From: Hyphomicrobiales bacterium
Lineage (GTDB): Bacteria > Pseudomonadota > Alphaproteobacteria > Rhizobiales > Rhizobiaceae
Assembly: GCA_900470285.1 (NCBI GenBank)
Contig: UCAG01000005.1
Location: 502,921-566,920, forward strand
Length of the DNA: 64,000 bases
Direction of reading: 5' to 3'
The notes under the pieces were generated by a model. The model saw only the letters and a list, made by a program, of their open reading frames with translations, had not been told where the DNA came from and searched no databases. The translations under genes and the position numbers were made by a program. Shown piece after piece: positions 2,686 through 33,576 of this stretch; within the stretch, counting starts at the first letter, position 1, and each line of letters starts with the position of its first letter.

Positions 2686-3114
2686 TTAAGCCTTGCGGCC
2701 AACCTTAAACGCCATGCCGATTGAAGCAGGCGCAACCGGCGCAAAACCGTATTGCGCATAAAGATGCTGTGCAGGACCATCAGCAATCAGGCTGACATAG
2801 GCACTCTCCGGCGCATGTTTATCCAGATAGGCTTTGATCTCAAGCATAATCCGCTTGCCAAGTCCCTGCCCCTGATAGTCAGGCAGAACCGCAATATCGC
2901 AAACCTGATAGGTTGTGCCGCCGTCACCGATGACGCGCCCCATGCCGATAATCTGATCACCATCAGCAATCTGCACGGCGAATAATGAATTCTTCAGACC
3001 GCGCTCGGCTGCGTCATTTGTTTTTGCACTTAGGCCGCTTGCAGCGCGTAAATGACAATAAGTCTGCACATCCGGAATCTGATGCAGCACCTGATATTTT
3101 GATTCAGCAGGCAT
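2686..3114 (-). CDS. GNAT family N-acetyltransferase
   Basis: This 142-residue acetyltransferase has the single-domain GNAT size. The acetyl-CoA binding motif A is visible as VLPDYQGQGLGKRIM (about 77-91, Q/RxxGxG/A), preceded by a beta-strand pattern VCDIAV and followed by the C-terminal YAQYGFAPV strand. The substrate is unknown. It lies 77 nt downstream of parC in the same direction, with a 14-bp hairpin between the two, so it may be transcribed separately or only partly read through from parC. Confidence 0.87.
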   Translation of the reverse strand: MPAESKYQVLHQIPDVQTYCHLRAASGLSAKTNDAAERGLKNSLFAVQIADGDQIIGMGRVIGDGGTTYQVCDIAVLPDYQGQGLGKRIMLEIKAYLDKHAPESAYVSLIADGPAQHLYAQYGFAPVAPASIGMAFKVGRKA

Positions 3115-3147
3115 GGCTAAAGGTTTCTTCCCATTGGTTTATCGGCA

Positions 3148-3185
3148 ATCAGAACGGTTTCATCCCTACAAGAAACCGTTCTGAT
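3148..3185 (-). terminator. Perfect 14-bp hairpin between parC and the GNAT gene
   Basis: ATCAGAACGGTTTC (3148-3161) and GAAACCGTTCTGAT (3172-3185) form a perfect 14-bp stem with a 10-nt loop, directly after the parC stop codon in its direction. There is no clean T-run, so it may be an inefficient terminator or a 3'-end stabiliser. Confidence 0.55.
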
Positions 3186-3191
3186 CAAATT

Positions 3192-5444
3192 TTACGATGT
3201 GAATTTACCGGTGCGCGGGAAACCCTTCGGCACCATACGTCCGGCAGAAGCGCGCGCGCCCGTCCATTCCAGCAATTCTTCTTTACTGCGTGTGAATGTG
3301 CGGTCAGCGGAATCCTGCCATGTCAGCCCCTGCTCGATAGCAAAGCTGCGGATGTCGGACACACCGCCGTCTTTGTATTTCTGCAGACGTACACCTTTAC
3401 CACGCACGAGTTCCGGCAGCTCGGACAGCGGGAATACCAGCATTTTGCGGTTTTCACCGACAACAGCCATGGTATCACCGGTCACACGCTGACAGATTTT
3501 CATCTCATCCGGCAGTTTCACATTCATGATCTGCTTACCCTTACGGGTATTGGCAATGACTTCGCTTTCGCTAATCATGAAGCCATAGCCCTCATGAGAG
3601 GCCAGCAGCAATTTCGCGGATGCATCATGAACAAAAGCGGTCAGAATATCCTGATCATTGTCCATATCGACCATGATACGGATAGGCTCACCATGGCCGC
3701 GACCACCCGGCAAAGTATTGGCTCCGATGGTGAAGAATTTACCACCGGTCGTTGCAACAACAATCTTATCCGTGGTTTCGGCATGGAAAGCCAGCTGCAG
3801 TTTATCGCCCTCTTTAAAGGACAGGCTGGAGAAATCTGCCAGATGTCCCTTCATGGCGCGCATCCAGCCTTTTTCTGACACCACAATCGTGACCGGCTCG
3901 CGCTCGATCATCGCCTGATGGATATCTTCCAGATCATGGCTCGGCGCTTCAGCAAATTGCGTGCGGCGCTTACCCAACGGCGTTTCCGGCCCGTAGGTCT
4001 CGCGAACCTTTTTGATTTCGCCGCTGATCGCCTTCCACTGCTTGATTTCCGAACCAAGCAATTCTTCAAGCTGCGCTTTTTCAAGTGTCAGCCCGTCAAA
4101 CTCTTTACGGATTTCAAATTCTTCCAGCTTGCGCAGAGAACGCAGGCGCATATTGAGGATCGACTCAGCCTGCATGTCTGTCAGGCTGAAGGTGCGCATC
4201 AGTTCCTGTTTCGGCTCATCCTCTTCACGGATGATGCGGATAACCTCATCCAGATTGAGGTAGGCAATCAAATAACCGCCCAGAATTTCCAGCCGCTTTT
4301 CAATCTCATTAAGCCGGAATTGTGAACGGCGCTGCAGAACTTCCTTACGATGTTCCAGCCATTCTTTCAGCACACCACCCAGCGAGAGAACATTCGGCAC
4401 TTTGCCATGGGAAAGCACGTTCATATTCAGCGAAATACGGCTTTCAAGCTCGGTGAGCTTGAACAGCGATTCCATCAGCAATTCAGGATCAACTGTACGG
4501 TTCTTCGGCTCAAGTACGATACGGATATCTTCAGCCGATTCATCGCGGATATCGTCGAGCAACGGCAATTTCTTCGCCAGCAGCAGTTCAGCGATTTTCT
4601 CAATCAGGCGTGATTTCTGCACCTGATACGGAATTTCCGTAATCACCACCACCCATGTACCGCGACCGAGATCTTCCTTCTCCCATTTCGCACGCACGCG
4701 GAATGCGCCGCGGCCTGTGCGATAAGCCTCAAGAATATTCTCTTTTGGCTCAACCAACACACCGCCGGTCGGAAGATCAGGTCCCTGAACAATTTGCACC
4801 AGTTCTTCAACCGTTGCCTGCGGATTGCGGATCAGCAGCAGCGCGGCATCACACAGCTCCGCCACATTATGCGGCGGAATATTGGTGGCCATACCTACAG
4901 CAATACCGGAGGAGCCGTTTGCGAGAAGGTTAGGAAAAGCACCGGGCAGAACGACCGGTTCTTCGTCTTCCTCATTATAAGTCGGACGAAAATCGATGGC
5001 GTTTTCTGTAATACCTTCAAGCAGCAGTGACGCCACTTCGGTCATGCGTGCTTCGGTGTAACGCATAGCCGCCGGATTATCACCGTCAATATTGCCGAAG
5101 TTGCCCTGCCCGTCTACCAGCGGATAGCGCACGGCAAAATCCTGCGCCAGTCGCGCCAGCGCATCATAAATAGAAGCATCGCCGTGAGGGTGGAACTTAC
5201 CCATCACGTCACCGACAATACGCGCGCATTTCGCGTAAGAGCTGCCCGGATTAAGACGCAGCAGACGCATGGCATGCATGATGCGGCGGTGAACCGGCTT
5301 CAGACCATCGCGCACATCCGGCAGCGCACGATGCATGATCGTGGACAGCGCATAGGCAAGGTAGCGCTCCTCGAGCGCCGATTTCAGATCAACTGTTTCA
5401 ACGTGATCATCGCCGCCTGAAGGCGGAATCAAATTATTTCCCAT
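3192..5444 (-). CDS. parC: DNA topoisomerase IV subunit A
   Basis: ParC is the DNA-cleaving subunit of topoisomerase IV, which with ParE decatenates daughter chromosomes. At 750 residues it has the ParC length (shorter than GyrA). The winged-helix cleavage domain includes [14 protein letters not shown] near 83-96 and the catalytic tyrosine Y129 in [11 protein letters not shown]-terminal beta-pinwheel region with degenerate repeats follows from about residue 490. At the position of E. coli ParC Ser80 this protein has Ala (A90), and at Glu84 it has Asp (D94). parE is not in the window. ATG at 5444 is the only plausible start. Confidence 0.95.
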
Positions 5445-5698
5445 GGAATATGGTTAGCAAGCGGCTGATTCTGCGGCAAGTCAGGATGCGTTTACACACA
5501 GTGAATAGGCCGGTTTTCCGCATTATTCTCGTTATTTCGTCAAAAATACAACGATAATGACAACAGATTTTCGATCATCCTCAAGTGTGACTTGCAGTAA
5601 AATAAACGGGCTGTTACGAAAATGACAAAATTGCCATGTTATTAGGCAATGACAGTATTTCGTATGTAATATTCAGGTCAACACTTAAGGAGCCTCTG

Positions 5699-6940
5699 AT
5701 GCCGGTTATGAAACCGCTATATACCGCAGCCCGCACTCTTTCCGTTGCTACAGCACTCACTGTGATCTTTGCTGGTTCAGCTTATGCACTGGACGGAAAT
5801 GATGTAGCCAAGCGTCTGCAGGCTCGCTTTGAAGAACAGGGTACAAAAATCGAGTTCGGCAAAGTCGACACCGACGGTTCAACTGTTACCCTGCGCGACA
5901 CAAAAATCGATTTCAAATCCGCTGAAATGGGCAGTTTCACCGTTGGTGACATTGTTCTGACAGATGTTGCTGAAAACGACAAAGGTGCCTACACCGCAGA
6001 AACAGCAACCCTGCAGGATTTTGAGAAAAAAGACGACAAGAGCACCTTCACTCTGAAGGGCGTTGAAATCGGCAAACTCTATCTCGCAGCAGATGACGAA
6101 CAGGATCCTGTTGTCAAAATGCTGTATTATCAAACCATGAAGGCCGACAGCTTTACCATCAACGAAGATGGTGAGGACATGGTCAGCATGAAAGATATTT
6201 ATGCCAGCTCATCCCCTTATACAAAAGGCACACCGGTTTCGATGAGCTTTGGTATCAAGTCCATTGATCTCGACATCGAGAAAATGGATGCACTGCGCAA
6301 AGGTGCGGATGCAAGCGCCGGCAATGATGAAGCTTCGCAAACACCAAATCCGATGATCGACCTTGGTTACAAACAGCTGAGCATGGCAGTAACCTCCACT
6401 GGTTCATGGGAACCGGAAAAAGGCGATCTGGCCATCGACAAAATGGAATTTGACGTCAAGGATGTCGGCAAATTCGACACCACAATGAAGCTTGGCGGCT
6501 ATGATGCAAAATTCATCAAATCCGTACAGCAGGCCAGCGCTGAAATGAGTGCCAATAAGGAAAATTCCGATGCAGCCGGTATGGCAATGCTCGGTCTGAT
6601 CCAGCAGCTTTCGATCAGCAACATGGCTATCCGCTATGACGATTCATCCCTCACCCCTAAACTGCTCGACTATTATGCCAAGCAGCAGGGTATCTCCAAG
6701 GAAGACATGGTCAACCAGATCAAAGGCATTGCGCCGATCATGGTTGGCTATCTCGGCCATGCGGATTTCGCCATGCAGGCAACGACTGCCGTCAACACCT
6801 ATTTTGACGATCCTAAGTCTCTGACAATTGCTGCAAAGCCGGAAGCGCCTGTTTCCTTCGCTCTGATCGCAGCAACTGCAACTGCTGACCCTAAGAAGCT
6901 TCTGGACCTGCTGGCTGTTAAACTGACTGCCAACCAGTAA
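5699..6940 (+). CDS. Secreted conserved hypothetical protein
   Basis: This is a 413-residue exported protein of unknown function. The ATG at 5699 is preferred over the further upstream in-frame ATG because AAGGAG (5686-5691) sits 7 nt before it. A signal peptide follows, with basic residues then a hydrophobic core and an Ala-x-Ala cleavage site near residue 30. The mature part alternates beta-strand-like segments rich in Asp, Lys and Thr (for instance GKVDTDGSTVTLRDTKIDF), then a helical Met/Gln-rich stretch, without Cys. This pattern is typical of periplasmic, lipid- or envelope-associated proteins in Hyphomicrobiales, but I do not recognise a named family. A strong terminator follows. Confidence 0.8.
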   Translation: MPVMKPLYTAARTLSVATALTVIFAGSAYALDGNDVAKRLQARFEEQGTKIEFGKVDTDGSTVTLRDTKIDFKSAEMGSFTVGDIVLTDVAENDKGAYTAETATLQDFEKKDDKSTFTLKGVEIGKLYLAADDEQDPVVKMLYYQTMKADSFTINEDGEDMVSMKDIYASSSPYTKGTPVSMSFGIKSIDLDIEKMDALRKGADASAGNDEASQTPNPMIDLGYKQLSMAVTSTGSWEPEKGDLAIDKMEFDVKDVGKFDTTMKLGGYDAKFIKSVQQASAEMSANKENSDAAGMAMLGLIQQLSISNMAIRYDDSSLTPKLLDYYAKQQGISKEDMVNQIKGIAPIMVGYLGHADFAMQATTAVNTYFDDPKSLTIAAKPEAPVSFALIAATATADPKKLLDLLAVKLTANQ

Positions 6941-30548: not shown

Positions 30549-31385
30549 TCAGAAGACCAGTGAGATACCGGCAACAGGCCCGTGCTCGGTAACATTCCAC
30601 TTAAATCTGTGACCGAGTACATCCCCGCCGTCATAATCCTGATAGAGTGCCCTGTAGCCGAAGCGCAATAATGCCGGCTGATTAAAGATATGCGTGCGAT
30701 AACCGAGATAGGCCTGCCCCTGCGCACTCAAATCTGCCCCCGCACCAAAACCGCCAACATCAGCCTCAGCAAACAAATGCCAGCGATCTGTCAGATCCGC
30801 CTGAATACGCGCTCCGACAAACGGATCCGTCCATTCCAGTTTGCGGCGCTCAGACCAGCGATCCAGCATGAAATCGACTTTAAGCTGTGTCCAGCGCAGA
30901 CCGGCAGTCGGTTCAACAGCAAAAACCCGCTGCGCACCGAAAACAGTCGTGCCTTCGAGCGGCACTTCAACAGCGCGGAAGAACGCCCCCGCAGAGAGCG
31001 TTGTCATCGTCACATCCGCCCCCAGAGTCTGTGCGTGGAACGATTCATCCTGACTGGTTTTTGTATATTGCCCGTCAAAATAAAGTCCAAAAAGGCCGTT
31101 TGTAACCTCAACATTGCCCATGGCACTGAAATCAAGATTCTTAAAAATATCCGAGAAAGGCACATCAATATTGGTACGGTGCCCGGCAACATTAGCATGA
31201 CCATCCAGTGAAGCGGCCCAAATATAGGGACTGACAATCACCTTCCAGCGCCGCTCGTCAAACTTGGCCGCAGGTTGCGGCGCCAGAACATCCGCGCCCA
31301 AAGCCTGCCCGCTGGCGATACTTGCAGCACTTATACATGCAGCAAAGATAATATGTGCAGTACTGATTCCGGATAAACACTTCAT
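30549..31385 (-). CDS. Predicted outer-membrane beta-barrel protein
   Basis: This 278-residue precursor has a signal peptide (basic start, hydrophobic core, cleavage near GQALGA) and a mature chain of alternating strands with aromatic residues, such as IVSPYIWAASLDGHANV and RWHLFAEADVGGFGAGADL. The last residue is Phe after GISLV, the usual outer-membrane insertion signal. I see no named family beyond a general OmpW/Omp-like barrel. The ATG at 31385 with GAGGGGGAG upstream is preferred to the longer open frame to 31496. Its promoter region is shared with the divergent amide hydrolase gene. Confidence 0.75.
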   Translation of the reverse strand: MKCLSGISTAHIIFAACISAASIASGQALGADVLAPQPAAKFDERRWKVIVSPYIWAASLDGHANVAGHRTNIDVPFSDIFKNLDFSAMGNVEVTNGLFGLYFDGQYTKTSQDESFHAQTLGADVTMTTLSAGAFFRAVEVPLEGTTVFGAQRVFAVEPTAGLRWTQLKVDFMLDRWSERRKLEWTDPFVGARIQADLTDRWHLFAEADVGGFGAGADLSAQGQAYLGYRTHIFNQPALLRFGYRALYQDYDGGDVLGHRFKWNVTEHGPVAGISLVF

Positions 31386-31569
31386 ATTTTTACTCCCCCT
31401 CAATAAGGAATATCTGCAAAACGATATAACTGCACTGTCTATATTTACACTTTGAGAAACTTCCAAAATAAGATCAAGATTAAATCGAATTTTCAATAGA
31501 TTTCTTCACATCTGATTCACACAATGCGTGATAAACGTTTTTGTCCATTTCTCTGAAAGGAGCATCCTT

Positions 31570-32685
31570 TTGAAACCAAGTTTTCCGCACGTCCTTAAGA
31601 ACAAATTTGTAAAATCCGCCACGACCCTGACAGTTATCGCTGCTGTTTCAGCTCCGTATGCGGCGGCGGCCTGTACCAGCTTCCTGTTACCGACAACAGA
31701 CGGCAGCGGCATTTATGCCCGCACCATGGAATTCGGTATGGAGCTGAAATCCAATGCACTGGTTATTCCGCGCGCCTATACGCTGCGTACAACCGGAGCT
31801 GACGGGAAACCCGGCATGAGCTGGAAGGGCAAATACGGCGCCATTGGCATGAATGCTCTGGGAGAATCCACTCTTGTTGACGGCATGAATGAAAAAGGCC
31901 TCGCAGGCGGTATTCTGTATTTCCCTGAATTTGCCGGTTATGCGGACGGCACAAAAACTGATCCGGCCAAATCTCTGGCACCATGGGATGTTCTGAGCTG
32001 GATTCTGACCAATTACGCCACAGTGGAAGAAGTAAAAGCTGCAATTAGCGACATCAGCGTGATTAATCTGGTGCATCCGGAAATGGGAATTGCTCCTCCG
32101 GTTCATTACACAATTCATGATGCCACCGGCGCTTCACTGGTTATCGAACCGGTCGACGGCAAACTCAAGATCTATGACAATCCCGTTGGCGTCATGACCA
32201 ACTCGCCGTCTTTTGACTGGCATCTGACCAATCTGCGCAATTATCTGAAAATGTCCGCTATTAATGCGGAACCGATGACAATCGGCGGACATAAATTCAC
32301 ACAGCTCGGGCAGGGTTCCGGCCTGATGGGATTGCCGGGCGACTCCACACCACCTTCCCGCTTTGTCCGCGCAACTGCCTATGTGCAGACAGTCGCAAAA
32401 GAAGCAAGCGGTACAGACAGTGTTCGCTTGACTGAGCACATTCTCAACAATTTTGATATTCCGAAAGGCTGGATTCAGATGGGTAAAGACTCCCAGATCC
32501 CGCTGGAATATACACAATGGTCAACAATCGCAGATCTGAAAAACCAAAAATACTATATCAAAATGTATGACGATCAGGTGTTACGCGAGATCGATATCAA
32601 AAAATTTGATCTGAATGCAAAAGAGTTGAAAAAAGCTGTATTCGCACCAAAACTGACGCCGCCTGCAGTTGAATTCGCCAAGTAA
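31570..32685 (+). CDS. Linear amide C-N hydrolase, choloylglycine hydrolase family (exported)
   Basis: This Ntn-hydrolase family includes bile salt hydrolases, penicillin V acylases and some AHL acylases. The 371-residue precursor has a signal peptide ending PYAAAA, so the mature N-terminus would be the catalytic Cys of CTSFLLP. Other active-site positions are visible: R of ARTMEFG, N of MTNSPSFDW, N of LTNLRN and R of SRFVRATAY. At the position of Asp21 in Gram-positive bile salt hydrolases it has Glu, as in other RTMEFG-type members. The TTG start at 31570 has AAGGAG 7 nt upstream; an upstream in-frame ATG at 31528 has no good site. A strong terminator follows. Confidence 0.87.
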   Translation: MKPSFPHVLKNKFVKSATTLTVIAAVSAPYAAAACTSFLLPTTDGSGIYARTMEFGMELKSNALVIPRAYTLRTTGADGKPGMSWKGKYGAIGMNALGESTLVDGMNEKGLAGGILYFPEFAGYADGTKTDPAKSLAPWDVLSWILTNYATVEEVKAAISDISVINLVHPEMGIAPPVHYTIHDATGASLVIEPVDGKLKIYDNPVGVMTNSPSFDWHLTNLRNYLKMSAINAEPMTIGGHKFTQLGQGSGLMGLPGDSTPPSRFVRATAYVQTVAKEASGTDSVRLTEHILNNFDIPKGWIQMGKDSQIPLEYTQWSTIADLKNQKYYIKMYDDQVLREIDIKKFDLNAKELKKAVFAPKLTPPAVEFAK

Positions 32686-32689
32686 AAAC

Positions 32690-32723
32690 AAAAAACCGGA
32701 GCTGAAAAGCTCCGGTTTTTTAT
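32690..32723 (+). terminator. Rho-independent terminator of the amide hydrolase gene
   Basis: AAAACCGGAGC-TGAA-AGCTCCGGTTTTTT, 10 nt after the stop; perfect stem and T-run. Confidence 0.92.
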
Positions 32724-32744
32724 CGGGTTCCCTATGCATCAATC

Positions 32745-33323
32745 TCAATCAAGGACATAGCAGCTTTTCGCTGTGCCGCGATCCGGATCACCGAATGTGC
32801 GGTTGTCACAATTTACACCGCCACGGAATACACGCTCAACAAAGCGATCCTGTGTGCCGTAACGTACGCGCTTGCGGCCGGAGAAATCACAATACTGGCC
32901 TTCCCGTGCGCAGCGCTGCCATTCACGGTCATCATCACGATCCCGTCCATAGCCGCCACGACCATCCCGATCACGATCACGATCACGGCCATATCCGTCA
33001 CGATCGCGTCCGTAACCGCCGCGGTCACGTCCGTCATCACGAACAACATAAGAGCAGCTTTTGGCTCTGCCGCGTGCAGGATCACCGAAGACAGAGTTCG
33101 AGCAACGCACCTGCGGCTGATTAATAAAGCGCGATGTTGCCCGTCTTCCGTTGCCGTAAATTACTTCTGTCGGATAAGGAATGCGGCAGACGCCCCCCTC
33201 AGAAGCACATTGCCGTACTTCCTGAGCTGATGCTGTTCCGGTATCAACCGTGTAAGCACCGGCAACAACGGCCAGAAACAACACGGCGCGGGACAGATTT
33301 GTCGCAATCGACATTGTGCTCAT
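32745..33323 (-). CDS. Secreted protein with two four-cysteine FGDP domains and Arg-Asp linker
   Basis: This 192-residue exported protein has a signal peptide (cleavage near ASA-Q, residue 33) and two copies of a domain of about 55 residues. Copy 1 has C39, C46, C74 and C90; copy 2 has C138, C145, C172 and C188, in both cases as Cys-x6-Cys-x26/27-Cys-x15-Cys with EGxxC, RYG/IYG, SVFGDP/RTFGDP and AKSC. Between them (about 95-133) lies a highly charged Gly/Tyr/Arg/Asp linker made of RD and GYGRDRD units. Four-Cys domains of this kind occur in secreted or carbohydrate-related proteins, but I cannot name the family. The ATG at 33323 has AGGAAGG upstream. Confidence 0.82.
   Translation of the reverse strand: MSTMSIATNLSRAVLFLAVVAGAYTVDTGTASAQEVRQCASEGGVCRIPYPTEVIYGNGRRATSRFINQPQVRCSNSVFGDPARGRAKSCSYVVRDDGRDRGGYGRDRDGYGRDRDRDRDGRGGYGRDRDDDREWQRCAREGQYCDFSGRKRVRYGTQDRFVERVFRGGVNCDNRTFGDPDRGTAKSCYVLD
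32925..33050 (-). repeat. In-frame hexamer-rich tandem repeat coding the Arg-Asp linker
   Basis: The coding strand repeats CGTGAT/CGGGAT-type hexamers (ATCACG/ATCCCG on the plus strand) interspersed with GGTGGCTATGG units. Because the unit is six bases, gains and losses keep the frame and would only lengthen or shorten the Arg-Asp linker. Confidence 0.75.
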
Positions 33324-33576
33324 TTGAATTTCCTTCCTGTATGAGCTGATGCTCATGGTGAAGCCTTTAAACTAAAGAGCAGATACAGTTTCCGGCCACC
33401 GAAGCAGTCTGACCAATATACGCTCGCAGTACCGGTTCTAGAACACAGAAATTGAACAGCAAATGAACAATCTCATCACTCTCTGTTCCGCTTTGAAATG
33501 ATTGTGCGATTTCTTAAGGCTGCAAGATTATTATGCTTTATGAGATTGTATGAAAATATCAGGAGCACCGCCGGCT

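Follow-up and report, generated by a model that had tools for sequence, protein, structure and literature searches.

A predicted secreted protein from an apparent Pseudochrobactrum genome with two miniature RBL/SUEL lectin-like domains

The gene, its neighbourhood and the linker

The window, the whole 64,000-nucleotide stretch analysed here (contig UCAG01000005.1, forward-strand positions 502,921 to 566,920; coordinates below count from its first letter), carries on its minus strand an open reading frame at 32745..33323 that encodes 192 aa from an ATG at 33323. An in-frame ATG further upstream on the same strand, at 33356, would lengthen the product by 11 aa to 203 aa; the start at 33323 is favoured because the open frame of a relative (L017) begins only at the equivalent position. 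The protein opens with an apparent Sec-type signal peptide (33225..33323, minus strand), read by eye, with cleavage probably after Ala-Ser-Ala, in keeping with the initial annotation of a secreted protein. Since no Cys lies close to the cleavage site, the signal peptide has no lipobox. The mature part consists of a first domain (33042..33221), a linker of 39 aa rich in Arg, Asp, Gly and Tyr (32925..33041) and a second domain (32748..32924), all on the minus strand. The cysteine spacings are C-x6-C-x27-C-x15-C in domain 1 and C-x6-C-x26-C-x15-C in domain 2, just as first described. Over 60 columns BLASTP finds the two domains 43% identical to each other (E 3e-12, a single pairwise comparison). 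From the family profile, model and tree we assign domain 1 to a 'PYP' subtype of a miniature RBL/SUEL-like domain, and from AlphaFold and structural comparison domain 2 to a 'GRK' subtype; RBL stands for the rhamnose-binding lectin, whose domain is known from animal egg lectins and latrophilins.

The gene was matched in all seven Pseudochrobactrum genomes searched, including its own, where it is single-copy; in one of them, the 61% complete genome G002, the matched stretch contains a flagged TAA. Its nearest relative among three named loci is that of Pseudochrobactrum saccharolyticum CCUG 33852, at 96% identity, and the source organism is apparently a species of Pseudochrobactrum. The dN/dS of the domains was 0.03-0.11 in 11 of 12 comparisons between the window and a relative, dS being saturated in the twelfth. 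Both domains are under strong purifying selection.

The convergent neighbour (31528-32685, plus strand) encodes a choloylglycine-hydrolase/penicillin V amidase family protein (Pfam CBAH, E 3.7e-80) that scores under the NCBIfam equivalog cut-offs. Between the two genes a consensus scan placed a terminator-like hairpin of 17 pairs (32687..32724), reported on the minus strand; the scan found 2 such hairpins against a shuffle mean of 1.3, and hence the hairpin is a consensus match only. Beyond lies a gene on the minus strand (30549-31496) for a protein without Pfam match that is outer-membrane-like by eye and is kept in the 5 genus loci compared. Both immediate neighbours are retained in 5/5 genus loci compared, from among 6 other genus genomes, and in 0/8 loci from three other genera, where the one exception, a 34% match over 127 aa, lies further away (L126). 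Because the immediate neighbours are conserved only within the genus, we draw no functional partner from them.

In a tree built on 58 columns the first domains of several genera, together with two single-domain relatives, group with support of 98/89, and the second domains form a group with 94/79 that is drawn open. As first and second domains group separately, the pairing appears, from these sequences, to be older than the genera compared. A recent domain duplication was rejected, each domain grouping with its counterparts in other genera on these few columns. Relatives in L030 (1306-1887 of the reverse strand) and L049 (4779-5285, plus strand) have just one domain, which belongs to the domain-1 group; a long tail, Arg/Asp-rich or Pro-rich, takes the place of the second domain.

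Of the 39 residues of the window linker, 13 are Arg and 13 are Asp, and in the AlphaFold two-domain model the corresponding residues 62-97 have pLDDT <50 and are predicted to be disordered. Linker length, which according to the initial annotation may vary between strains, is not constant between species: the seven genus genomes have linkers of 39, 35, 41, 36, 41, 40 and 40 aa, with net charges from -1 to +4, and +4 in four of the seven. Over 18 distinct linkers of two-domain homologues, counted with the residue preceding Trp, length ranges from 17 to 42 aa and net charge from -8 to +5. The linker is best read as a flexible spacer, although charge may play some part, given that in four of the seven genus genomes the linker is mildly basic.

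The linker had also been described as coded by hexamers, with repeat changes that stay in frame. Comparison of the window with P. saccharolyticum (L015) shows one clean, in-frame gap of 12 bp, that is two hexamers, the window being the longer. The in-frame change of linker length is thus real, and it lies between species. The gap falls at an array of 4.0 copies of a 6-bp unit (32964..32987, minus strand). This array is short: a tandem-repeat scan at the default score limit gave no hexamer array, and it was detected only after the limit had been lowered to 30. Furthermore, the lag-6 periodicity of the linker DNA, 0.505, was reached by 855 of 2000 synonymous recodings of the same peptide. Since the periodicity is no higher than in such recodings, the hexamers mostly reflect the Arg-Asp peptide. 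We therefore rejected the periodicity as an expansion signal at the DNA level.

Relationship of the domain to RBL/SUEL lectins

No model in Pfam or NCBIfam matches the domain, so that the known and ordinary domain which would have spoken against the initial annotation did not turn up. The Pfam SUEL model (PF02140) detected the gene neither in the protein scan nor in a search of its own genome, and it matched 0 of 23 family domains at E up to 1. In the own-genome search it gave one sub-threshold place, on another contig and with stops in frame; across 200 genomes it gave a match in 5, above the cut-off in 1. PHROGs returned weak matches only (best E 0.0093, one of 7 members), and a search of the PDB with the single sequence gave one weak match, over the linker (E 0.41).

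When the full set of PDB sequences was searched with a profile of the 23 domains (E up to 10), two distinct sequences matched, both of them RBLs, namely 5h4s (E 2.7e-10) and 2zx0 (E 1.9e-5); these low E-values sum over repeats, the best single stretch having an i-Evalue of 0.31. An earlier profile of 7 rows had matched these two and a third RBL, weakly. Domain 1 matches the family profile at E 1.4e-26, in a profile that itself includes domain 1. Profile-profile comparison in local mode with SUEL domains, of which five come from viral contigs and the others from RemA and a plant beta-galactosidase, gave a score of 31.8 and a probability of 86, and none of 100 column-permuted profiles reached this score (maximum 17.9). 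Other settings were weaker, with probabilities of 14 in global mode and 20 without the correlation term, and in the default local runs (probability 78-84) the alignment was confined to the FGDP loop, at 21-22 columns. In the full-length profile alignment, which extends across the domain, the Glu stands opposite the Glu of the SUEL rows, Tyr-Gly opposite their Tyr-Gly and one FGDP..G..K loop opposite the other.

Predicted structures point the same way. The AlphaFold model of domain 2 has pLDDT 95.9 and pTM 0.80. Compared with 685 chains, it gave RBL/SUEL structures in all of the best ten rows, at Z 4.9-6.3 and rmsd 2.1-2.6 with 59 or 60 of its 60 residues aligned, the next row having Z 3.0. The two-domain model, in which domain 1 is also folded, likewise had RBLs in its ten best rows (Z 4.7-6.6, against 3.3 for the row after them), some aligned over domain 1 and some over domain 2, with residues 1-60 aligning to RBL lectins in several rows. 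A Z of 5-6 can reflect a common arrangement, and only the gap to the other rows speaks for relationship. Foldseek against the PDB returned no row at E up to 0.001; it gave 5h4s at E 0.88 with probability 0.90 and ranked an unrelated chain first. Against viral models it gave three matches at E up to 0.001, all to proteins of giant viruses (two from Tupanvirus, and mimivirus L701); a phage lysozyme came next, at E 0.005. On these predicted structures the domain appears to have the RBL fold, and the reading that fits best is a reduced variant of that lectin fold.

Set beside known members, the domain shows both likeness and difference. RBL domains are defined by seven (eight) conserved Cys, four disulfides and about 95 residues, according to PMC2430599 and PMC8350385. 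CSL3 (2zx0), SUL-I (5h4s) and the latrophilin lectin domains (2jx9, 6ske, 5afb) match the model in fold at Z 5.1-6.3 over 59 or 60 of 60 residues, and RBL/SUEL lectins and the window domains have in common the N..FGDP..G..K loop and equivalent Glu, Tyr-Gly, Gly and Lys; CSL3 and SUL-I also carry tandem domains, as the window protein does. However, the window domain has about 56 residues, loop 1 being missing, against about 92 in RBL/SUEL domains, and two probable disulfides with Cys at other positions against four. The domain is not filed as a member of PF02140, because Pfam score and cysteine pattern both fail; it probably works like one.

Residue conservation was counted over the family. A 32-row profile (A3) run against the open frames of the collected loci gave 179 hits, which after removal of those with <45 filled positions left 93 distinct copies and, at an 80% identity cut, 64 representatives (31 from genomes, 30 from viral contigs and 3 from plasmids). 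In the RBL of latrophilin-1, rhamnose is contacted by Glu42, Tyr63, Gly117 and Lys120, and every substitution of Glu42 and Lys120 that was tried strongly reduced or abolished binding, as reported in PMC2430599. Among the representatives the equivalent Glu is present in all 63 rows that have a letter there and the Lys in 64/64. The Tyr position holds Tyr in 58 and Phe in 6, and the Gly that follows it is invariant (64/64). Elsewhere, Asn is found in 53/64 and Asp in 62/64, and the loop Gly in 51/64, being replaced in the other 13. This equivalence comes from the profile alignment and not from superposed coordinates. The latrophilin-1 loop, PDPCPG-T-Y-K, has the same D-P-x-x-G-x-x-K spacing as the miniature domain. 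Furthermore, the 60 model residues, 59 of them aligned to latrophilin 35-126, fit an arrangement in which the contact residues coincide and 33 loop residues are missing, an arithmetic match that is consistent and not unique. As judged from the alignment, the putative sugar-contact residues Glu, Tyr(-Gly), Gly and Lys are kept.

The cysteines suggest how the domain may be held together. Both of the first two Cys are present in 56 of the 64 representatives, neither in 7, only the first in 0 and only the second in 1, this last row being unaligned at the first Cys; the joint loss has a Fisher p of 1.3e-8, a value not corrected for relatedness. Six of the seven representatives without the first pair fall in one weakly supported tree group and one lies elsewhere. 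The last two Cys are present in 64/64. As the first two are lost together and the last two are always there, each domain likely has two disulfides, formed within the C-x6-C and C-x15-C pairs.

Distribution of the domain and the proteins that carry it

The domain is carried by 13 of 398 genomes in a phylum sample, by 18 of 297 in a family sample (one of these by a weak partial match only) and by 5 of 72,556 plasmid records, from Cupriavidus, Glaciecola, Eleftheria, Anabaena and Deinococcus. Two queries against the INPHARED isolate phage genomes gave no match to it, and for this reason the many IMG/VR hits may partly be host DNA, from contig edges or prophages; we base no conclusion on phage biology on them. 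One 322-kb viral contig (L051), which may not be a true virus, has adjacent genes for a DUF1996 and a DUF1800 protein (2784-4664 and 4677-6857, plus strand) with two domain copies each. Four other viral contigs (L120, L123, L124 and L125) encode SUEL-like domains within large proteins; in L120, the one contig of the four scanned, Pfam SUEL_Lectin scored E 3.1e-6 and 27.9 bits against a cut-off of 31.4.

In other proteins the domain is joined to larger partners. It is attached to PilY1 beta-propeller proteins in both of the full frames examined (2/2), L140 (469-4875, plus strand) and L141 (591-5096, minus strand), where it lies in the N-terminal part of the protein (PF05567, E 6.4e-42 and 5.9e-32). 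This placement points to a part in gripping glycans at the tips of type IV pili. Two galactose-oxidase-like proteins carry it, one with AbfB and the other with ricin-type lectin domains; further carriers are a subtilase, proteins with DUF1800, DUF1996 or He_PIG domains, a Pel9A-like beta-helix protein and an fn3/SpvB/RHS-type protein. Several carriers, including a Cupriavidus protein (L019), have no Pfam match outside the domain. By profile, the domain of the PilY1, galactose-oxidase-like, subtilase and beta-helix fusions is of the same family as that of the window protein; there it is appended to a large adhesin or enzyme, whereas in the window protein it makes up the whole mature protein, twice.

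A bacterial surface protein with an RBL-type domain is already known in RemA of Flavobacterium johnsoniae (8gl6 chain D), a gliding adhesin that is exported by type IX secretion; the viral SUEL profile finds its domain at E 4.1e-13. RemA brings about cell aggregation through a galactose-containing exopolysaccharide, according to PMC8481357. Its chain of 1436 residues contains a full-length SUEL domain. The protein described here, by contrast, is small, begins with what looks like a Sec signal and has the domain in reduced form. Among the open-licence PMC papers listed, no title or opening of an abstract dealt with a miniature domain of this kind, which is weak evidence of absence.

Proposed function and its alternatives

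Collectively, we favour, at a probability of roughly 0.6, an exported protein whose two reduced RBL/SUEL lectin-like domains, joined by a flexible linker, bind glycans bivalently; we infer its sugar binding, the type of sugar, the bivalency and the location. The signal peptide read by eye would direct the protein to the periplasm or to the outside. Each domain would consist of the RBL beta core and the Asn..Phe-Gly-Asp-Pro..Gly..Lys loop, without the large loop 1 and with two disulfides, and would grip a terminal sugar of the L-rhamnose or D-galactose type. The sugar would be held by an invariant Glu that follows the first Cys, by the tyrosine of Tyr-Gly, by the backbone of the Gly and by the invariant Lys. 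The linker would serve only to let both sites reach neighbouring chains, and the protein may in this way cross-link or tether polysaccharide, be it its own O-antigen, exopolysaccharide or outside glycans. We count in favour of glycan binding the company that the domain keeps (PilY1, galactose-oxidase-like, subtilase, beta-helix and fn3/RHS-type proteins) and what is reported of RemA. The glycan binding by the domains that was proposed at the outset is thus supported indirectly, by the predicted RBL/SUEL-like fold and the conserved candidate contact residues.

An RBL-like fold may also have been kept without any sugar binding, the two domains being protein-protein modules, for example for a partner in the envelope. 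PMC2430599 argues that receptor RBLs bind non-carbohydrate ligands and may bind proteins instead of sugars, and latrophilin lectin domains complexed with teneurins are among the structural matches found here. However, in receptor RBLs the Glu and Lys are often lost, as described in the same source, whereas here they are kept in 63/63 and 64/64, and the domain adjoins enzymes and lectin domains that act on glycans; we consider this alternative rather unlikely. It is improbable that the fold arose here by convergence only, in a small Cys-rich protein acting as an antimicrobial, an inhibitor or a structural part of the envelope. Sub-threshold Pfam matches to big defensin (E 0.1) and, in a homologue, to beta defensin (E 0.23) hint at it, but their scores lie far under the cut-offs (PF14862, 13.1 bits against 25; in the homologue PF00711, 12 against 21), and the RBL match is consistent across sequence and structure, with a permutation control.

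The idea that the charged linker itself binds polyanions, which goes back to the initial annotation and would leave the Cys domains as structural caps, draws on the Arg content of the linker and the net +4 of four genus linkers. It found no support and is very improbable: in the window linker the Asp residues offset the Arg one for one, and over the 18 linkers the charge takes both signs and the length varies while the domains are conserved, the linker itself being predicted to be disordered. The initial observation is thus confirmed and its interpretation partly supported.

More broadly, the domain may represent a widespread and still unregistered miniature family of RBL/SUEL lectins, of about 56 residues with two disulfides and a minimal sugar site, a proposal to which we give even odds. 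In bacteria (Pseudomonadota, to which plasmid hits add Anabaena and Deinococcus), in viral contigs and, as far as predicted structures show, in giant viruses it would be a general module for gripping glycans, standing alone or bolted onto PilY1 proteins, oxidases and proteases, and the large disulfide-rich forms of animals and plants would be elaborations of this minimal core or parallel to it. If glycan binding by reduced RBL/SUEL domains is correct, a family that matches no Pfam or NCBIfam model would gain a fold and a proposed binding site with named residues, and the extra domain in some PilY1 and galactose-oxidase-like proteins would be accounted for. The domain would also be a very small lectin scaffold that shows how little of an RBL domain suffices for a sugar site, and it would bear on the question of a descent of animal RBLs from a compact bacterial core.
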